The translations under genes were made by a program, and so were the position numbers. This document shows, one piece after another, positions 570 to 39,724 of a stretch of DNA of 64,000 nt; the stretch's first letter is position 1, and every line of letters starts with the position of its first letter. The stretch spans positions 1 to 64,000 of IMG/VR virus record IMGVR_UViG_3300044846_003506. One strand, given 5' to 3'. Under the pieces are notes generated by a model, which did no database searches, had not been told where the DNA came from, and saw nothing but the letters and a program-made list of their open reading frames with translations. The DNA comes from a virus.

Positions 570-1229
570 GTGGAAGAGTCACAAGCAAAACAACTTTTTA
601 TCGATTTATTTGGTAAAGAATTTGAAATTTATGGTCTTTTAGTAAAATTAGTTAGTGTTCATTACGGAGAAGTAAAAAATTCAAACAAAACTTACTATTT
701 TAACTTTGAAATAACTAATCCAAATGACGTTTCTTATTATTATTTACCTTTTGGGTGGGAAATTGATGAGATGTTAATTGATTTTAGTAAATATGTTGAC
801 GTAAAAACCAAATCAGAAGTATATTTTGATACAAATCAAGGTGATTTATACTTCAATCGAGAGAAAACTAAAGAAATTGAAAACGCATTCAAGCAAGTAG
901 ACACAATAAAGTTCACAACAGGCACCCCATTCATAGGTTATAAACGTTATGAAATAAAAATCAAATCAGTTGGATATAAAAAAGGGTTTCAACATGAACA
1001 AATATGGTTAGATAACGTTAGTAAACCTATAAGTGCCACTAAAAATGGTGATCCGTGTGACTTAGACGAAGCGATTTTACAATATTATGAAGAATTTTTA
1101 CCACAAAATGAAACTTATTGGGAGTCTGAAAACATTTACCAACATTTAGACCAAGTTTTATCATCAATTCCTTCTATTGGTAACAACGATATACTATTAT
1201 CATACTCAACAACACTATCTCGTAAGTGA
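570..1229 (+). CDS. Hypothetical protein with GTG start
   Basis: 219 residues. The only start near the 5' end is GTG at 570, twelve bases after the previous stop and in the same reading frame. No intervening stop separates that TAA from the GTG, so a readthrough extension of the upstream protein is formally possible. The protein is rich in Y, F and acidic residues and has no motif I recognise. It ends convergently, overlapping the uvrC-like gene by 15 bases. Confidence 0.6.
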   Translation: MEESQAKQLFIDLFGKEFEIYGLLVKLVSVHYGEVKNSNKTYYFNFEITNPNDVSYYYLPFGWEIDEMLIDFSKYVDVKTKSEVYFDTNQGDLYFNREKTKEIENAFKQVDTIKFTTGTPFIGYKRYEIKIKSVGYKKGFQHEQIWLDNVSKPISATKNGDPCDLDEAILQYYEEFLPQNETYWESENIYQHLDQVLSSIPSIGNNDILLSYSTTLSRK

Positions 1230-2489
1230 TTTACTACGTTTTTTACGGTGAAATGTTATAACAAACCTATGAACCTCATCTTGAATGGTTGCAAGTAGGT
1301 TAAAAAACTTAGAATTTTCAAATTTTACAGTATTTCCGTCAATAAAATGTAAAATATCTGACTTGTGAGACGAATTTTTACTAATTGACACTAAATCTAC
1401 CCTATCAAGTATAGAAAGTTCGTTAAAAACCCTCTTTGCCACCCCTAATTGACCCTTACCACCATCAATAATAACCATATCAGGTAGTTTTTTCTTCTCA
1501 GATAGTAATCTTTGGAACCTGCGACGTAAAACTTCATCAAAAGATGCGTAATCATCTGGACCTTCCACTGTTTTTATGTTGAATTTACGGTATTCTGACG
1601 TGTTTTTCTTACCATTAGTGTACCTAACTAAGGCAGATACCTGACAATCACCTCCTGTATGGGAGTTATCATACATTTCTATGTCAATTGGAGTGTTTTT
1701 TAACCCATAAGTAGTCTTAAAGTCGTCTGCAAGTACCAAATAACCGCCAATTCTTGTAGTTTCTACACATTTCTCATACTTATTTAGTGCATCTAACCTG
1801 AATTTGATGTCATTTGCCTTCTCAAACTCCATATTCTTACTGTATTTACCCATCAAACGGGATAACTTACCTCTATATTGATCAATTTTATAAGAAATTA
1901 CGTCTTTTAGGTCAGAAATGGTGGAGTTATAGACAAATTTATTGATATTACCCACACATGGGGAGTCACATCTACCCATATGGGACTCTAAACAAGAGGA
2001 GAACTTAGTATTTTCTACATTTTCAGGTGTAATATCATAAGAACATGACCGTAAATTAAATATATCATGTAGTAAATCATACATTTCATAACAAATATTA
2101 CTACTTGTAACACAAATTAGGGGATCTGTGTCCAAATTAGTCTCATTTTTTACTTCAAGACGAGGAAAAACCTCATTTGACAGGGTTAAATACCATTTTT
2201 TAGACCGATCATCCTTTAATTTAATGTTAAATTTAGGTTTGTGGGACTTAATTAAGTCATTTTCAAGAGTAAGAGCGGAATTTTCGTCTAAAGTGGTCAA
2301 AAAATCGACATCTGAGACGTTTTCTACCAATAATTTAGTCTTATCTGAGTGATTTTTGTTAGAAAAGTACGATTTTACCCTATTTGGGAGGTATTTTGCC
2401 TTGCCAACATAGATAATTTGACCTTTTTTGTCCTTAAAAAGGTAACAACCACTAGATTTTGGGATATTTTTTAGTTTTTCTTCTAACAT
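1215..2489 (-). CDS. uvrC: UvrC-like excision nuclease without the helix-hairpin-helix tail
   Basis: 424 residues, against about 600 in bacterial UvrC. Seen in order: a GIY-YIG domain (GCYLF, then IIYVGKAK, residues 14-45); a four-cysteine region ending CLESHMGRCDSPCVG (about 150-180), like the Fe-S ligands of UvrC; a UvrB-binding-like helix (about 210-235); and the RNase H-like domain with IEMYDNSHTGG, DDYA, IIDGGKGQLG and EVHRFVITFHR. The Asp/Asp/His catalytic residues of that domain are kept. The C-terminal (HhH)2 DNA-binding region is absent. It would incise DNA on both sides of a lesion in nucleotide excision repair. No UvrA or UvrB is visible, so it may act with host proteins. It lies alone on the - strand. 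Confidence 0.9.
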   Translation of the reverse strand: MLEEKLKNIPKSSGCYLFKDKKGQIIYVGKAKYLPNRVKSYFSNKNHSDKTKLLVENVSDVDFLTTLDENSALTLENDLIKSHKPKFNIKLKDDRSKKWYLTLSNEVFPRLEVKNETNLDTDPLICVTSSNICYEMYDLLHDIFNLRSCSYDITPENVENTKFSSCLESHMGRCDSPCVGNINKFVYNSTISDLKDVISYKIDQYRGKLSRLMGKYSKNMEFEKANDIKFRLDALNKYEKCVETTRIGGYLVLADDFKTTYGLKNTPIDIEMYDNSHTGGDCQVSALVRYTNGKKNTSEYRKFNIKTVEGPDDYASFDEVLRRRFQRLLSEKKKLPDMVIIDGGKGQLGVAKRVFNELSILDRVDLVSISKNSSHKSDILHFIDGNTVKFENSKFFNLLATIQDEVHRFVITFHRKKRSKSLTR

Positions 2490-5567: not shown

Positions 5568-5575
5568 TATTTATT
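5568..5575 (+). promoter_or_regulatory. TATTTATT element before the secreted-protein trio
   Basis: TATTTATT seven bases before the ATG at 5583. It is the only such site in front of the three tightly packed secreted genes, so they probably form one unit. Confidence 0.45.
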
Positions 5576-5582
5576 GTTATAT

Positions 5583-6176
5583 ATGAAATCTATAATTACC
5601 ATTTTATTTTTATTTATTTTTACAATTACATTTGGTCAATGTAACGGAGTGCAATCTTTTACTTTAACTCCACCTCCAATCGGCGGAACTTATTTACCGG
5701 GTCAAGTCGTAACCATGTGTTATACCATGAATGGATATACTCAAGCAGGGACCAATTGGATTGAGGGGTTTGATTTAACATTAGGTCCAGGTTGGGCTTC
5801 AGTTGCCCCACAAACCACACCTGCAAATTGTGGAGGAAACGCAACAGGAGGACAATGGGTATGGAGAACTTCAGTAACATCAACCACAACACCAATAGTT
5901 ACTGTCGGTCCTGGTTACTTTTTTGATTTAACAGTTGATGGTAATCCAGGAAATGATTTTGGTGATGCCGGTTCTTGTGTATGGACATTTTGTGTAACTC
6001 TAACAGTTGCAAATGTATGTACACCACAAAACTTATTATTACAAGTCACTCCCGGTTCAGATGGTATGTGGGGTAGTTATACAAGTAGTACTTGTGACTT
6101 AGCAACACCATTTACCGTATTTAACGGAACAATAAACGCAGTCCCAATTGTTTTGGGACCAATAACACACAATTAA
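5583..6176 (+). CDS. Secreted protein with N-terminal signal peptide
   Basis: 197 residues from the ATG at 5583. The N-terminus MKSIITILFLFIFTITFGQ is a classical flavobacterial signal peptide, probably cut after FGQ. The mature part is rich in T, G, P and aromatic residues with several cysteines, consistent with a beta-sandwich surface domain. The C-terminus ends in PITHN, echoing PIQHN at the end of the next protein. It has no sorting domain of its own. First gene of a three-gene unit ending in a T9SS-sorted protein. Function unknown. Confidence 0.7.
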   Translation: MKSIITILFLFIFTITFGQCNGVQSFTLTPPPIGGTYLPGQVVTMCYTMNGYTQAGTNWIEGFDLTLGPGWASVAPQTTPANCGGNATGGQWVWRTSVTSTTTPIVTVGPGYFFDLTVDGNPGNDFGDAGSCVWTFCVTLTVANVCTPQNLLLQVTPGSDGMWGSYTSSTCDLATPFTVFNGTINAVPIVLGPITHN

Positions 6177-6182
6177 ATTATT

Positions 6183-6764
6183 ATGAAAAAAGTTTTATTT
6201 ATTTTAATGACAATGATTTCAAGTATTTCATTATCACAATTATCAACAGTTAACCCTGATACGGTTTGTTATCAATCAACAGCACTATCAACTTACACAA
6301 TACCTTCAGTTGGTTCAGGCACTTATACTTGGACAGTTGCTGCTCCTGGAGTAATAACCGCAGGTCAAGGAACTAATTCAATATCTGTCAATTGGTCAAC
6401 TGCATCCCCTGGTTTGATACCAAATGGTGTGTCTGTTACATACTCATCGCCTGCACCCGCAAACTGTCCTGCAACCCCTGTAAACTTAAATGTGTTGATT
6501 TATCAGGTTATACCTACAATCACTGCTTTAGGACCATTTTGTGAATCTGATCCTTGTGTGACTTTAGTTGGGTCACCTGTAGGTGGAACTTGGTCAGGAA
6601 CGGGAGTTGTAGGGAATCAATTTTGTCCCGATAACGTAACTAATGGTACAAACGCAACTTCAACTGTGACATATACGGTTGGGTCTGCTGGATGTACATT
6701 TTCTACTTCTGTTGTTGTTCCTGTTTATGGTACACCAACATTATCCCCGATCCAACATAACTAA
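6183..6764 (+). CDS. Secreted Ig/PKD-like protein
   Basis: 193 residues with signal peptide MKKVLFILMTMISSISLSQ. The mature part has PKD/Ig-like strands (a TYTWTVAAPGVITAGQGTNS segment about residues 45-64) and a second repeat with paired cysteines (FCESDPCVTL, about 119-128). It ends SPIQHN, like the previous protein. It starts six bases after the previous stop, and its own stop abuts the next ATG, so the three genes look translationally coupled. Probably exported from the infected cell. Partner and role unknown. Confidence 0.7.
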   Translation: MKKVLFILMTMISSISLSQLSTVNPDTVCYQSTALSTYTIPSVGSGTYTWTVAAPGVITAGQGTNSISVNWSTASPGLIPNGVSVTYSSPAPANCPATPVNLNVLIYQVIPTITALGPFCESDPCVTLVGSPVGGTWSGTGVVGNQFCPDNVTNGTNATSTVTYTVGSAGCTFSTSVVVPVYGTPTLSPIQHN

Positions 6765-7331
6765 ATGAAATTCATTTTTTTCATATTATTTTTATTTATG
6801 TCCTTAGTTACTTCGGCACAACAACTTATTGAATTGTGTGCCGGAGAAACTAAAACTGTTACGTACTTCTCAACATCAACGGGTGATGGGACTACGTCAT
6901 GGACTGTTAATGGTATTGTATATAACACAGATGAATTAACATATACATACAACAGTGAAGGGACTTATAATATAGTTGTAAAAAGAGAAAACGGACCATG
7001 TTATGTTGAAGAGACTTTACAAGTGGTTGTAACCGAGTGTCCTGGCGTAACTTATTGGATCCCTAATTGTTTTACACCTGACGGAAATGAACATAACCAA
7101 GTTTTTGGTCCTGTTATGATTGATGGGTTTGATATAAATGGATTTGAATTCAGAATCTTTAATCGATGGGGTAATGTTGTTTGGGAGTCACAAGACCCTA
7201 ACGGAAAGTGGGACGGCACATATAAAAATAAAAATTGCACCGATGGTGTCTATATATGGACTTTAAAATTCAATATTTTTGGTGATGATGGAAAAGTTTT
7301 TGATCATGGACATTTAACCCTTATTCGGTAA
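6765..7331 (+). CDS. Secreted protein with type-B T9SS C-terminal sorting domain
   Basis: 188 residues. Signal peptide MKFIFFILFLFMSLVTSAQ; one Ig/PKD-like domain (about 20-95, with STGDGTTSWTVNG); then a complete gliding-motility-associated (CHU_C, type-B T9SS) sorting domain. Landmarks are WIPNCFTPDGNEHNQVFGP, FEFRIFNRWGNVVWES, KWDGTYK, DGVYIW and GHLTLIR at the very C-terminus. In Bacteroidota this domain sends proteins through the type IX system to the cell surface. A phage copy implies use of the host T9SS during infection. It follows the previous gene without a gap and ends convergently with the - strand cluster. Confidence 0.9.
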   Translation: MKFIFFILFLFMSLVTSAQQLIELCAGETKTVTYFSTSTGDGTTSWTVNGIVYNTDELTYTYNSEGTYNIVVKRENGPCYVEETLQVVVTECPGVTYWIPNCFTPDGNEHNQVFGPVMIDGFDINGFEFRIFNRWGNVVWESQDPNGKWDGTYKNKNCTDGVYIWTLKFNIFGDDGKVFDHGHLTLIR

Positions 7332-20244: not shown

Positions 20245-22284
20245 ATGGCTAATAAAAAAATATCGGAATTACCATATATTAACGGTGGTGAAATATCAGG
20301 AAACACTTTGGTTCCTTTGGTTACTTATTATAGTGCCACGACAGGTGATACTGTACACACATATATAACAGACTTACAAAATTATTTAACTAGTGGAATT
20401 ACTGTTAGTGGTAATTATTTACCATTAAGTGGTGGAACAGTAACGGGACAAACAATATTTAATCAAGGATTAACTGCAACAACAATATCAGCAACAACTT
20501 ATCAGAATTTACCAATAAGTGGTTTAACAGAAGGAAACTACATCAATATAAGTGGATCTAATGGGAATTATACGGTATCAGTTACTGGTCTTACACAAGG
20601 GTTAAGTGGCGATTATTTACCTTTAAGTGGTGGTACTGTTACGGGGAATACCGTATTTACTCAAAACATATCAGTAACAGGTGTCACTGGAATTAATTGG
20701 TTTAGTGGTAACACTTCTACCGATTTATTAAGGGTTACACAAACAGGAGTAGGAAATGCGTTTGTGGTTGATGATTCAACAAATCCAGATTCAACACCAT
20801 TTGTTATAAATTCTGGTGGTAGTGTTTCAATAGGAACCACAAGTGTATTTTCAGTAGGTGCGGGAGCAGAAACTAAATTAAACGTATCAACAGGATCATC
20901 TGGAGTCGCAACAACGGGGTTATCCGTTTCAACACCTGTAATAATTGAGTCAACGGTTGGTACAAGTATTGGTTTATTTAATCCAGATGTTGCAAATTCA
21001 CAAATGTATTTTGGTACACCATCAGATGCGTTTGGTGCATTTTTAAGGTGGGATTACACAAATAGAAATTTAATTTTATCAACCGCAAATGGTACAGGTA
21101 AGTTAATTTTCCAAACGGCCAATGGTGTTGAAGTTGCGAGAATAGACCAAAGTGGTAATATGGGTATTGGTCTTACAGGGGCAACTCAAAAATTAGAAGT
21201 TTCAGGTAATACGTTGGTATATGGTAATTTAGAACTAACGTCAGAAAATACAACATCTATTGGCAATATTTTGAGATTCAGAGACAGTGATAGTGTTGTT
21301 ACTCCGACAACTGAACAGTTTATTGGTAAAATTGAGTTTTTCAGTAATGAAAATACAGGTGGTGGTACTGGAGTTAAAAGTTATATTGCTGGAGTTCAAG
21401 ATGCATCTGCAAATAGTTCGATTGTTTTTGCTACTACGGGGGGTACCGGAACTTTAACAGGATCTTCAACAACAATAATTGGTGAAAGAATGAGAATCAC
21501 TAGTACAGGAAATGTTGGTATTGGAACTACATCTCCGTCAGAAAAATTACAAGTTTCAGGTAATGTTTTAATTTCAAACACATTAAGTGCTACCACAATA
21601 TCAGCAACAACCTATCAAAATTTACCAAATAGTTTAACAGGGTTATATCTACCAACAAGTGGTGGTACTGTTTCAGGAAATACAATATTTACGAGTGGTT
21701 TAACTGCAACAACATTAAACATATCATCAACACCAACAACAGATACAGGAACAACAACTAATGTATTAGTTAGAGACATATCAACAGGTGTTATTAAACA
21801 AAGAGATATTACAAGTACTTTAAATAAAAATTACGCATCTTTTTATGACACTGGAGACCAAACAGGTCTTGCTAATACAGTATTAACTATGTCGGCAAAC
21901 ACATCAGATTCTTGGAATACTGGGATTACTTTAAGTGCAAATACAAGATTTGTAATACAAAATCCTGGTGTTTATAATTTAGCATTTAGCGCTCAAATGG
22001 TAAAAACTGGTGGTAATAGTTCTACACACGCACACATATGGCTTTATCAAAACGGTCTTGATGTATTATATAGTGCTAGTCAGATTGGATTTCCTTCAAA
22101 TACTGTATATGTTGTTCCTGCTTGGAATTTCTTTTTTAGTACTACAACACCAAATGAATATGTTGAATTAAAATGGGAAATAAATAGTAATGTAGATAAC
22201 CAATTGTCAATAAAACATCAACCAGCCGCTGGAAGTGTACCCGCAATCCCATCTCTTATTGTTACTATCAACCAAGTAAATTAG
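20245..22284 (+). CDS. Tail fibre with LPLSGGTVTG repeats and TNF/C1q-like tip
   Basis: 679 residues. The shaft carries repeats of YLPLSGGTVTGxTxF...GLTATTISATTYQNLP at about 55-92, 124-140 and 448-495. Between them lie beta-helical segments with GNMGIGLTGATQKLEVSGN and GNVGIGTTSPSEKLQVSGN, patterns common before fibre tips. The last 140 residues (from TGLANTVLTMSANTSDSWN, with NPGVYNLAFSAQM and HIWLYQNG) look like a C1q/TNF jelly-roll, a common receptor-binding head. It binds the host surface. The glycosyltransferase gene follows after 34 bases. Confidence 0.85.
   Translation: MANKKISELPYINGGEISGNTLVPLVTYYSATTGDTVHTYITDLQNYLTSGITVSGNYLPLSGGTVTGQTIFNQGLTATTISATTYQNLPISGLTEGNYINISGSNGNYTVSVTGLTQGLSGDYLPLSGGTVTGNTVFTQNISVTGVTGINWFSGNTSTDLLRVTQTGVGNAFVVDDSTNPDSTPFVINSGGSVSIGTTSVFSVGAGAETKLNVSTGSSGVATTGLSVSTPVIIESTVGTSIGLFNPDVANSQMYFGTPSDAFGAFLRWDYTNRNLILSTANGTGKLIFQTANGVEVARIDQSGNMGIGLTGATQKLEVSGNTLVYGNLELTSENTTSIGNILRFRDSDSVVTPTTEQFIGKIEFFSNENTGGGTGVKSYIAGVQDASANSSIVFATTGGTGTLTGSSTTIIGERMRITSTGNVGIGTTSPSEKLQVSGNVLISNTLSATTISATTYQNLPNSLTGLYLPTSGGTVSGNTIFTSGLTATTLNISSTPTTDTGTTTNVLVRDISTGVIKQRDITSTLNKNYASFYDTGDQTGLANTVLTMSANTSDSWNTGITLSANTRFVIQNPGVYNLAFSAQMVKTGGNSSTHAHIWLYQNGLDVLYSASQIGFPSNTVYVVPAWNFFFSTTTPNEYVELKWEINSNVDNQLSIKHQPAAGSVPAIPSLIVTINQVN
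20395..21720 (+). repeat. Dispersed fibre-shaft repeats
   Basis: Near-identical DNA copies (for example TTAAGTGGTGGAACAGTAAC and ACAATATCAGCAACAAC) occur around 20395-20520, 20605-20665 and 21580-21720. They give opportunities for recombination between fibre genes. Confidence 0.6.
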
Positions 22285-38391: not shown

Positions 38392-38922
38392 ATGAAATAT
38401 ATCTTATTTATCTACCGTTGTGACGATAAAAAAAACAAAACCGAATTTGTCGGAGGAATTGCTCAAGAATTAAGTCCAATTGTTAAATCAGACGAAATTA
38501 AATTTGTTTTTGGTGATACAAACGCGGTTTACCATTTTGAAACAGAAATGTCATTTCCTGAATTGAATATCTATTTGGAATTAGTTAGTAAAGACTTTGA
38601 TGACTTTACGTACTTCTTAATCCCAAAAGGAAGGAATTTTGCAAGTAATATTGAGAAACAAAATTTAGACCACCTAATGGATCTTTATCCAAATAAGAAA
38701 AAAAGAAAAAGTAATAAAGGTATCTTTGAATTACCTAAAATTGAACTCAACGAAGAGGAGTTTATAAAAAATTATCTATCATCTGTTGATTATAAGGAAA
38801 AAAATGAAGATATTTGTATCCTTACAGTTGATGAGATATTAGATAAAATAACAGATAATGGTATTAACTCTTTAACTAAATCAGAAAAAAATAAACTTGA
38901 CGAATATTCTAAAAACGTATAA
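38392..38922 (+). CDS. Hypothetical protein with C-terminal rhomboid-tail-like motif
   Basis: 176 residues from the ATG at 38392, downstream of the -7 box at 38336. The body is unrecognised alpha/beta. The last 31 residues read VDEILDKITDNGINSLTKSE, then EYSKNV. This is the same motif as residues 20-47 of the 2547-3089 protein and resembles the short module at the C-terminus of Bacteroidetes rhomboid proteases. The stop is one base before the sigma-factor ATG. It might modulate the sigma factor, which is inference from position only. Confidence 0.55.
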   Translation: MKYILFIYRCDDKKNKTEFVGGIAQELSPIVKSDEIKFVFGDTNAVYHFETEMSFPELNIYLELVSKDFDDFTYFLIPKGRNFASNIEKQNLDHLMDLYPNKKKRKSNKGIFELPKIELNEEEFIKNYLSSVDYKEKNEDICILTVDEILDKITDNGINSLTKSEKNKLDEYSKNV

Positions 38923-38923
38923 T

Positions 38924-39724
38924 ATGAAAGACAAAAATGTTGGGGCACCAATAAACCAAGAAGAAATTCAACACTACCTTAAAGACATTAGGAAAATAAA
39001 AGTTATGACTCCCGATAGAGAAAAGGAAATGGCAAAACTTATGAAGTCAGATGAAATAAGTGTGGACCAAAGAAAACAAATTGAGGAAGAATTACTTAGA
39101 GGTAACTTACGTTTTGTGATAACAGTCGCAAAACAATACCAAAACCAAGGATTGGATCTTTCAGATTTAATCGCTGAAGGTAATTTAGGTCTTATGAAGG
39201 CAATTAAACACTTTGATTGGAATAAGGACTTAAGATTTATCTCATACGCAGTGTGGTGGGTTAAACAATCTATAATCCAATCATTAAATGATAACGCAAG
39301 AACAATAAGACTACCAGTTAATGTTGTTCAGGATCTACAAAGAGCAAAGAAAGAGTTAGAACAAACAGGTAAAAAACTTGAAGATAAGTTCTCATCTTTA
39401 CCATCAATAATTGATTTAGATATGAAAATTAATGATGAAGGAGATACTTTAATTGACATGATCTCAAACCCAGATGCCGAACAACCTGATTCAGCATTTA
39501 ATACTAAAGATTTATTAAAAGATAAATTAATGTCTTTGTTAAATGTTTTAGACGATCGTGAAAAAATAATTGTTGGAGATTATTTTGGGTTAACAGGAAC
39601 ACCAAGAACCCTTGAGGACATTGGGACTGATTTTGGCCTAACAAAAGAAAGAGTTAGACAGATTAAAGAAAAAGCGTTACGAAGACTTAGAAATGGTGGT
39701 TCTGTATTATTTGAATATATTTAA
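38924..39724 (+). CDS. Phage-encoded sigma-70-family factor
   Basis: 266 residues, start at 38924 just after the previous stop. Region 1.2-like (QHYLKDIRKIKVMTPDREKE); region 2 (GNLRFVITVAKQYQNQGLDL, DLIAEGNLGLMKAI, ISYAVWWVKQSIIQSL, RLPVNVVQ); region 4 helix-turn-helix (LEDIGTDFGLTKERVRQIKE). The region 2 wording is strikingly like Bacteroidetes RpoD, and the region between 2 and 4 is compact. It would redirect host RNA polymerase, plausibly to the TATTTAT(T/A) elements, which is not proven. A host-like box upstream at 38336 fits early expression. Confidence 0.9.
   Translation: MKDKNVGAPINQEEIQHYLKDIRKIKVMTPDREKEMAKLMKSDEISVDQRKQIEEELLRGNLRFVITVAKQYQNQGLDLSDLIAEGNLGLMKAIKHFDWNKDLRFISYAVWWVKQSIIQSLNDNARTIRLPVNVVQDLQRAKKELEQTGKKLEDKFSSLPSIIDLDMKINDEGDTLIDMISNPDAEQPDSAFNTKDLLKDKLMSLLNVLDDREKIIVGDYFGLTGTPRTLEDIGTDFGLTKERVRQIKEKALRRLRNGGSVLFEYI

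Follow-up and report, generated by a model that had tools for sequence, protein, structure and literature searches.

A conserved three-gene phage unit combining a type-B T9SS sorting domain with partners that share a short C-terminal ending

We describe a phage three-gene unit, conserved in 49 distinct loci, in which the third product (P3) carries a type-B T9SS sorting domain (CTD), the first gene is replaceable, the first two products (P1 and P2) end in a shared short tail, and single-chain counterparts exist in other phages; apart from the CTD these features are new here, as are the homology between the domains that follow a tail and the tailed relative in a Flavobacteriales MAG. The conserved PIxHN ending, the replaceable gene 1 and the single-chain versions extend beyond the preliminary description of this DNA. 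We hold it at an even chance that the unit makes a phage-encoded structure on the infected-cell surface, assembled from three separately exported polypeptides.

Gene layout, conservation and upstream element

The window, the 64,000-nt stretch of DNA analysed here, belongs to a virus record of 92,454 bases with matches to tail fibre, primase, SbcCD, sigma factor, exonuclease, endolysin-like and thymidylate synthase proteins. The tail fibre, primase, SbcCD, sigma factor and thymidylate synthase matches identify the record as a phage. The features of the unit, all on the + strand, are:

5568..5575, +, TATTTATT element, putative promoter for late expression of genes 1-3 (TATTTAT enrichment, relatives)
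5583..6176, +, gene 1, encoding P1 (197 aa from the ATG): beta-sandwich domain behind a signal-peptide-like start; CTD absent; replaceable among relatives
6159..6173, +, C-terminal tail PITHN of P1 (I/V-x-H-N/D ending)
6183..6764, +, gene 2, encoding P2 (193 aa): two PKD/Ig-like domains behind a signal-peptide-like start; CTD absent
6237..6506, +, P2 residues 19-108, PKD-like domain 1, which may accept the P1 tail (hhalign homology)
6747..6761, +, C-terminal tail PIQHN of P2 (I/V-x-H-N/D ending)
6765..7331, +, gene 3, encoding P3 (188 aa): signal-peptide-like start, PKD-like domain, type-B CTD
6819..7043, +, P3 residues 19-93, PKD-like domain 1, which may accept the P2 tail (hhalign homology)
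7059..7328, +, type-B T9SS sorting domain of P3 (CHU_C / TIGR04131; residues 99-188; PF13585, TIGR04131)

The open reading frame list places the start of gene 1 at a TTG (5574), with the ATG at 5583. Genes 1 and 2 are separated by 6 bases and genes 2 and 3 by 0 bases in the window, and the gene 2 stop overlaps the gene 3 start by 1 nt in 32 loci; judged from sequence, coupling among genes 1-3 is tight, and purifying selection acts on them. Readthrough or frameshifting as a means of fusing the ORFs was rejected: they share one frame in the window, but the frames differ in two relatives (L008, L036), and every ORF has its own signal-peptide-like start.

Searches of IMG/VR with P3, P1 and P2 returned about 190 loci, among which the same contigs often recurred. 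Removal of loci sharing an identical 60-residue end with an earlier locus left 49 complete three-gene loci (window included), five with two genes and five with one; a single-chain CHU_C protein is present in nine distinct loci (L192 and L193 being alike). All phage relatives are metagenomic fragments, and they place the unit in differing neighbourhoods. Genes 2 and 3 are constant, with P2 spanning 184-197 aa and P3 mostly 183-191 aa, and gene 1 is replaceable, its products ranging from 190 to 632 aa. P1 (about 190-216 aa) occupies this position in most loci; the alternatives comprise SprB-repeat proteins of 490 aa (L111) and 262 aa (L139), a 349-aa protein with a glycine-rich domain (L126) and further proteins 322-632 aa long. 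SprB repeats (PF13573) were detected in the gene-1 products of L111 and L139, as well as in the single chains of L085 and L027, with L026 falling below the cut-off; a Pfam search found none in the window unit. In four relatives, a further large secreted protein is encoded just upstream of the unit (L134:2484-4934, L140:370-4932, L117:1749-3908 and L151:656-4648). It bears a type-A-like T9SS tail by PF18962 in L134, L140 and L117 (weak in two), and by eye in L151.

The element noticed earlier ahead of the unit, TATTTATT, is real and above chance: TATTTAT occurs 21 times against 2.5 expected in 45-nt windows upstream of ORF starts across the 92-kb record, mostly at -11/-12 relative to the start, and precedes gene 1 in most relatives. 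TATTTAT is probably a phage late promoter with very short leaders, and TATTTATT is likely the late promoter driving the unit. A sigma-70 factor of the phage's own is encoded at 38897-39724. Other ORFs of the record with TATTTAT at -11/-12 are numerous and include those at 2536, 8288, 17314, 19842 and 62173. Elsewhere in the record, many otherwise unlike ORFs share a similar N-terminal stretch of 20-30 residues (MKxxITESQ..LI..SEQ; window 2547, 11684, 13898 and 17323; record 66201 and 74679), perhaps a capsid-targeting propeptide. By eye, the record also holds two similar-looking UvrC/GIY-YIG-like proteins, at window 1215-2489 (- strand) and record 79992-81275 (+ strand).

Sorting domain, signal-peptide-like starts and selection

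The type-B CTD that the preliminary description placed at the end of the third protein is borne out by profile searches. P3 matches PF13585 CHU_C (E 3e-14, 53.3 bits against a cut-off of 27) and TIGR04131 (E 1.6e-9, 37.7 bits against a cut-off of 35), the latter match running to the last residue (188). Alignment of 26 P3 sequences revealed invariant P100, N101, F103, T104, P105, N111, R134, W135, G136, W149, G151 and Y163, and the conserved CTD motifs (PNxFTP, RWG, WxG and Y) are all present in P3. The domain is carried by P3 in 49 of the 49 complete loci, making routing through the host T9SS the natural reading; that P3 is a type-B substrate that would take this route is well supported. P1 and P2 gave no match to PF13585, PF18962 or TIGR04131 at E values up to 10. 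By known criteria, P3 is the only T9SS substrate among the three proteins.

All three proteins begin with Lys and a hydrophobic run, followed by a predicted cut ahead of Gln (TFG/Q in P1, SLS/Q in P2 and TSA/Q in P3, the slash marking the cut). Gln occupies this position in 187 of 189 unit proteins of the relatives, confirming signal-peptide-like starts on three consecutive genes, and the hydrophobic run followed by Gln recurs in all 63 P3 relatives, giving P3 the hallmarks of a Sec signal peptide. A Gln after the cut is the Bacteroidetes "Q-rule" (PMC5837995). These Q-rule starts, together with 635- and 642-kb relatives predicted for Bacteroidetes, fit a T9SS-bearing host, and the phage probably infects Bacteroidota-type bacteria.

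In divergent pairs, the first 17 codons tolerate replacements (pN about 0.3-0.5 in many pairs), whereas the mature parts are constrained, with pN/pS mostly 0.05-0.15 for P1 and P2; this is the pattern expected of cleaved signal peptides. Mature P3, at a pN/pS of about 0.25, is under weaker purifying selection than mature P1 and P2. That P1 and P2 are so strongly conserved points to a conserved binding partner and against antigenic variation. A search of the PADLOC-DB defence library returned 0 families for P1, P2 and P3.

The selection data bear on a reading in which P3 acts as a decoy: produced in excess, this minimal CTD protein would occupy the host SprF-like shuttle or translocon and stop gliding or adhesin display, with P1 and P2 as helpers. 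P3 does consist of one small domain plus the CTD, with no shuttle of its own, and overproduced type-B substrates can exceed low-abundance shuttles (PMC12618676). The stronger purifying selection on mature P1 and P2 than on P3, and the long adhesin-like regions ahead of the CTD in single chains, superfluous for a decoy, make this distinctly unlikely.

Ig-like domains are common on virions, and the putative late element also precedes the tail-fibre-like gene at 20245, so P1-P3 could conceivably be virion parts, either Ig-like decorations or a receptor-binding structure. Packaging in the cytoplasm, however, needs neither conserved signal-peptide-like starts nor a CTD; the signal peptides evolve as cleaved, and the neighbourhoods differ among relatives. 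We regard this as the least probable reading.

C-terminal tails and single-chain counterparts

An I/V-x-H-N/D sequence ends every gene-1 and gene-2 product of the split units. The loci together contain 2,822 unique ORFs; the 137 with this ending all belong to the unit, outside which only two ORFs end in HN or HD. Upstream of the ending, gene-1 products have Gly at -6 (56 of 60), and gene-2 products have Ser or Thr at -6 (50 of 52) and Pro at -5 (52 of 52). The tail is kept on gene-1 proteins with no match to the P1 model (L111, L118, L126, L134, L139 and L140), and its retention on proteins of unrelated make-up indicates that it belongs to the position, not the fold. IxHN as a general tag was rejected: elsewhere in the large phage genomes it gave only scattered matches beyond gene-1/gene-2 pairs, not clearly above a reversed-pattern control; one of these, examined at ORF level (L134), ends no ORF. 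In the related loci L117 and L118, both tails end in HD rather than HN, as if a single reader of the tail had changed; the shared Asp could equally reflect one common reader, which counts against the tail-acceptor pairing proposed below.

P1 matched no Pfam family, and its single-chain structure model (pLDDT 79.7) ends in a coil at the tail. A specific fold for P1 was rejected, since only generic Ig-like matches were obtained, with TM < 0.45 (query-normalised) among the matches listed. P2 matches PF19408 PKD_6 (E 1.1e-8), and its single-chain model (pLDDT 89.3) places the last strand at residues 171-182, leaving the tail outside the fold (residues 183-193). Profile-profile comparison with hhalign revealed that domain 1 of P2 is homologous to domain 1 of P3 (95.5%, E 1.5e-8), the other eight domain pairs tested reaching at most 6%. 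The domains homologous to each other are those that lie downstream of a tail, at the starts of P2 and P3, which suggests that these first domains may be sockets for the tails. Two covalent arrangements were rejected. A Lys-Asn/Asp (Spy-type) isopeptide within the unit lacks a suitable residue, since none of the three mature proteins has a Lys conserved at 90%; a host protein could still be the partner. An inter-subunit disulfide, considered from the odd cysteine counts (7 in P1, 3 in P3), is countered by the presence of C92 of P3 also in the L026 single chain.

The same modules occur in single chains. L081 and L082 each encode one protein of 526-527 aa that runs from P1 through a P2-like part to P3 behind one signal-peptide-like start. 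In LR745206, a phage of about 635 kb, a 732-aa protein matches P2 at residues 401-555, followed directly by P3 at 556-732, with no tail and no inner signal peptide between the two parts: the P2 match ends before the tail, and the P3 match begins within the end of the signal peptide. LR756502 (642 kb) combines P1-like, SprB-repeat, PKD and CHU_C parts in 1,670 aa. In the study that describes them, phages of this size were predicted to infect Bacteroidetes (PMC7162821). The recurrence of the same modules in the same order within one chain indicates that the three parts belong to one object, and that the three small genes are the split form of a colinear surface protein. The tail in the split unit thus occupies the place of the peptide link in the single chains.

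These chains weigh on a reading in which only P3 uses the T9SS and P1 and P2 stay periplasmic, where the tail would serve as a binding or retention motif, with the two proteins perhaps helping to assemble P3, protecting it or preventing the DNA of a second phage from entering. P1 and P2 do have signal-peptide-like starts with no CTD, and known T9SS cargo needs a CTD (PMC12618676); yet the same domains lie upstream of a CTD in single chains, where they would reach the surface, and gene 1 can encode a SprB-repeat protein, a surface-adhesin type. We consider a periplasmic location unlikely.

A tailed relative also occurs in a bacterial setting. Contig L198, from a Flavobacteriales MAG, encodes a 927-aa CUB/PKD protein with C-terminal repeats that ends in PAITHN. 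Next comes a P2 orthologue (54% identity), truncated where the contig stops; bacterial-looking genes adjoin the tailed gene-1-like protein. Profile scans of genome contigs found no bacterial relative with P1 and two with P2, and a P2 search of plasmids gave no match. Of the genomes sampled, 3 of 399 from the order and 1 of 396 from the phylum had a strong P2 match, indicating that P2 is far commoner in phages; one such match (L206) belongs to a 400-aa fusion protein that bears a type-A tail. UniProt contains two related entries from uncultured Caudovirales phages: A0A6J5NML0, which shares 62% identity with P2, and the 187-aa A0A6J5NJX2, annotated as gliding motility-associated C-terminal domain; both differ from the present unit in being single entries under short generic names.

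The unit could be a host adhesin cassette carried as cargo, useless to the phage or benefiting the host. In its favour are the tailed gene 1 and P2 orthologue of the Flavobacteriales MAG, the latter falling among phage P2s in a tree that gives no direction of transfer. Against it, pN/pS is low and lengths hardly vary across many divergent phages, and strong P2 matches are scarce in the sampled order and phylum genomes; we consider this reading very unlikely.

Proposed surface assembly and relation to known systems

In the surface structure that we favour, the late promoter would drive the unit and Sec would export P1, P2 and P3. P3 would then exit through the host T9SS, held by a host PorP/SprF-like shuttle, and P1 and P2 would be joined to it via their tails, at the place of the covalent link in the single chains. 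The tails may dock into the homologous PKD-like domains, in the order gene 1 product to P2 to P3, leaving the gene 1 product (P1 or SprB-like adhesin modules) as the exposed part. Against this tail-acceptor pairing stand its basis in domain homology and order, and the presence of the acceptor domains in chains that need no tail. As to use, masking receptors, sticking cells together, excluding other phages or hindering gliding are guesses, as are the earlier suggestions that the unit marks or shields the infected cell.

Passage of type-B substrates through the T9SS depends on a PorP/SprF-type shuttle (PMC9143113, PMC12618676). The host is invoked as its source because the phage record has no PorP/SprF gene: PF11751 matched nothing in the 92-kb record or in the other unit-bearing viral records searched, except the 270-kb record of L196. 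A cognate shuttle gene close by, which is usual but not universal for type-B substrates, is thus absent; shuttles can serve more than one CTD, and orphan type-B substrates with a distant shuttle are known (PMC12618676).

The closest known type-B systems, SprB-SprF of F. johnsoniae and PG1035-PorP (PMC9143113, PMC12618676), share with the unit a signal-peptide-like start and a terminal CHU_C domain, and SprB also shares its repeats with gene 1 of some relatives. P3 differs in its length of only 188 aa, in having no nearby shuttle gene and in its two tailed, CTD-less upstream partners. As a gliding adhesin of SprB type, the window unit lacks both SprB repeats and an adjacent sprF. The sprC-sprD-sprB-sprF operon of F. 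johnsoniae likewise has extra genes beside a type-B adhesin, being named as one operon in works cited by PMC12635249 and PMC9870892; the likeness is one of gene arrangement, and the phage has no sprF. Aureispira GhpA (PDB 9fly, 9flp), whose CTD is matched by the P3 profile (E 6.5e-13), is also the best PDB fold match of P2 (E 5.7e-5, TM 0.35), a weak match between generic Ig-like domains; GhpA is a single chain of 5,898 residues.

Phage T9SS cargo has been published (PMC7468147, PMC6949934), so the cargo idea itself is not new. The Cryophage genes bear T9SS sorting domains and have been proposed to exploit host export; they are of type A, variable, and encode enzymes or PA14-domain proteins, with no tail-bearing partners reported (PMC7468147). 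The crAss-like cluster-2 ORFs resemble the unit as sorting-domain proteins of Bacteroidetes phages but carry BACON repeats, and no three-gene unit is described for them (PMC6949934). The CHU_C proteins of LR745206 and LR756502, which contain P2-P3 or P1 modules, differ in having one chain, one signal peptide and no IxHN tail, and are not discussed as T9SS cargo in the available part of their source (PMC7162821). Our search of the open-access literature turned up no account of either the three-gene unit or the tail.

The shared four-residue ending suggests a mechanism, as yet undescribed, that joins or sorts secreted proteins. We propose tentatively, and as somewhat short of an even chance, that I/V-x-H-N/D is a new Bacteroidota C-terminal assembly or sorting tag, by which CTD-less proteins ride with, or join on the surface, a small CTD carrier that displays interchangeable adhesins; phages would have adopted or invented the tag to rebuild the infected-cell surface. 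T9SS cargo is commonly understood as one chain with its own CTD, and a carrier with tag-bearing partners would follow a different logic of surface display. The tag would be short and directly testable, perhaps usable for display in flavobacteria. Many large Bacteroidota phages would then deliberately remodel the surface of infected cells, and superinfection exclusion and gliding of infected cells could be tested with a defined gene set.

The exceptional 270-kb record (IMGVR_UViG_3300020165_000007) encodes its own PorP/SprF-type shuttle (L209:1438-2427; PF11751, E 4e-45), located a few kb from a 998-aa CHU_C cargo protein (L196:3280-6276) that is a different single chain.
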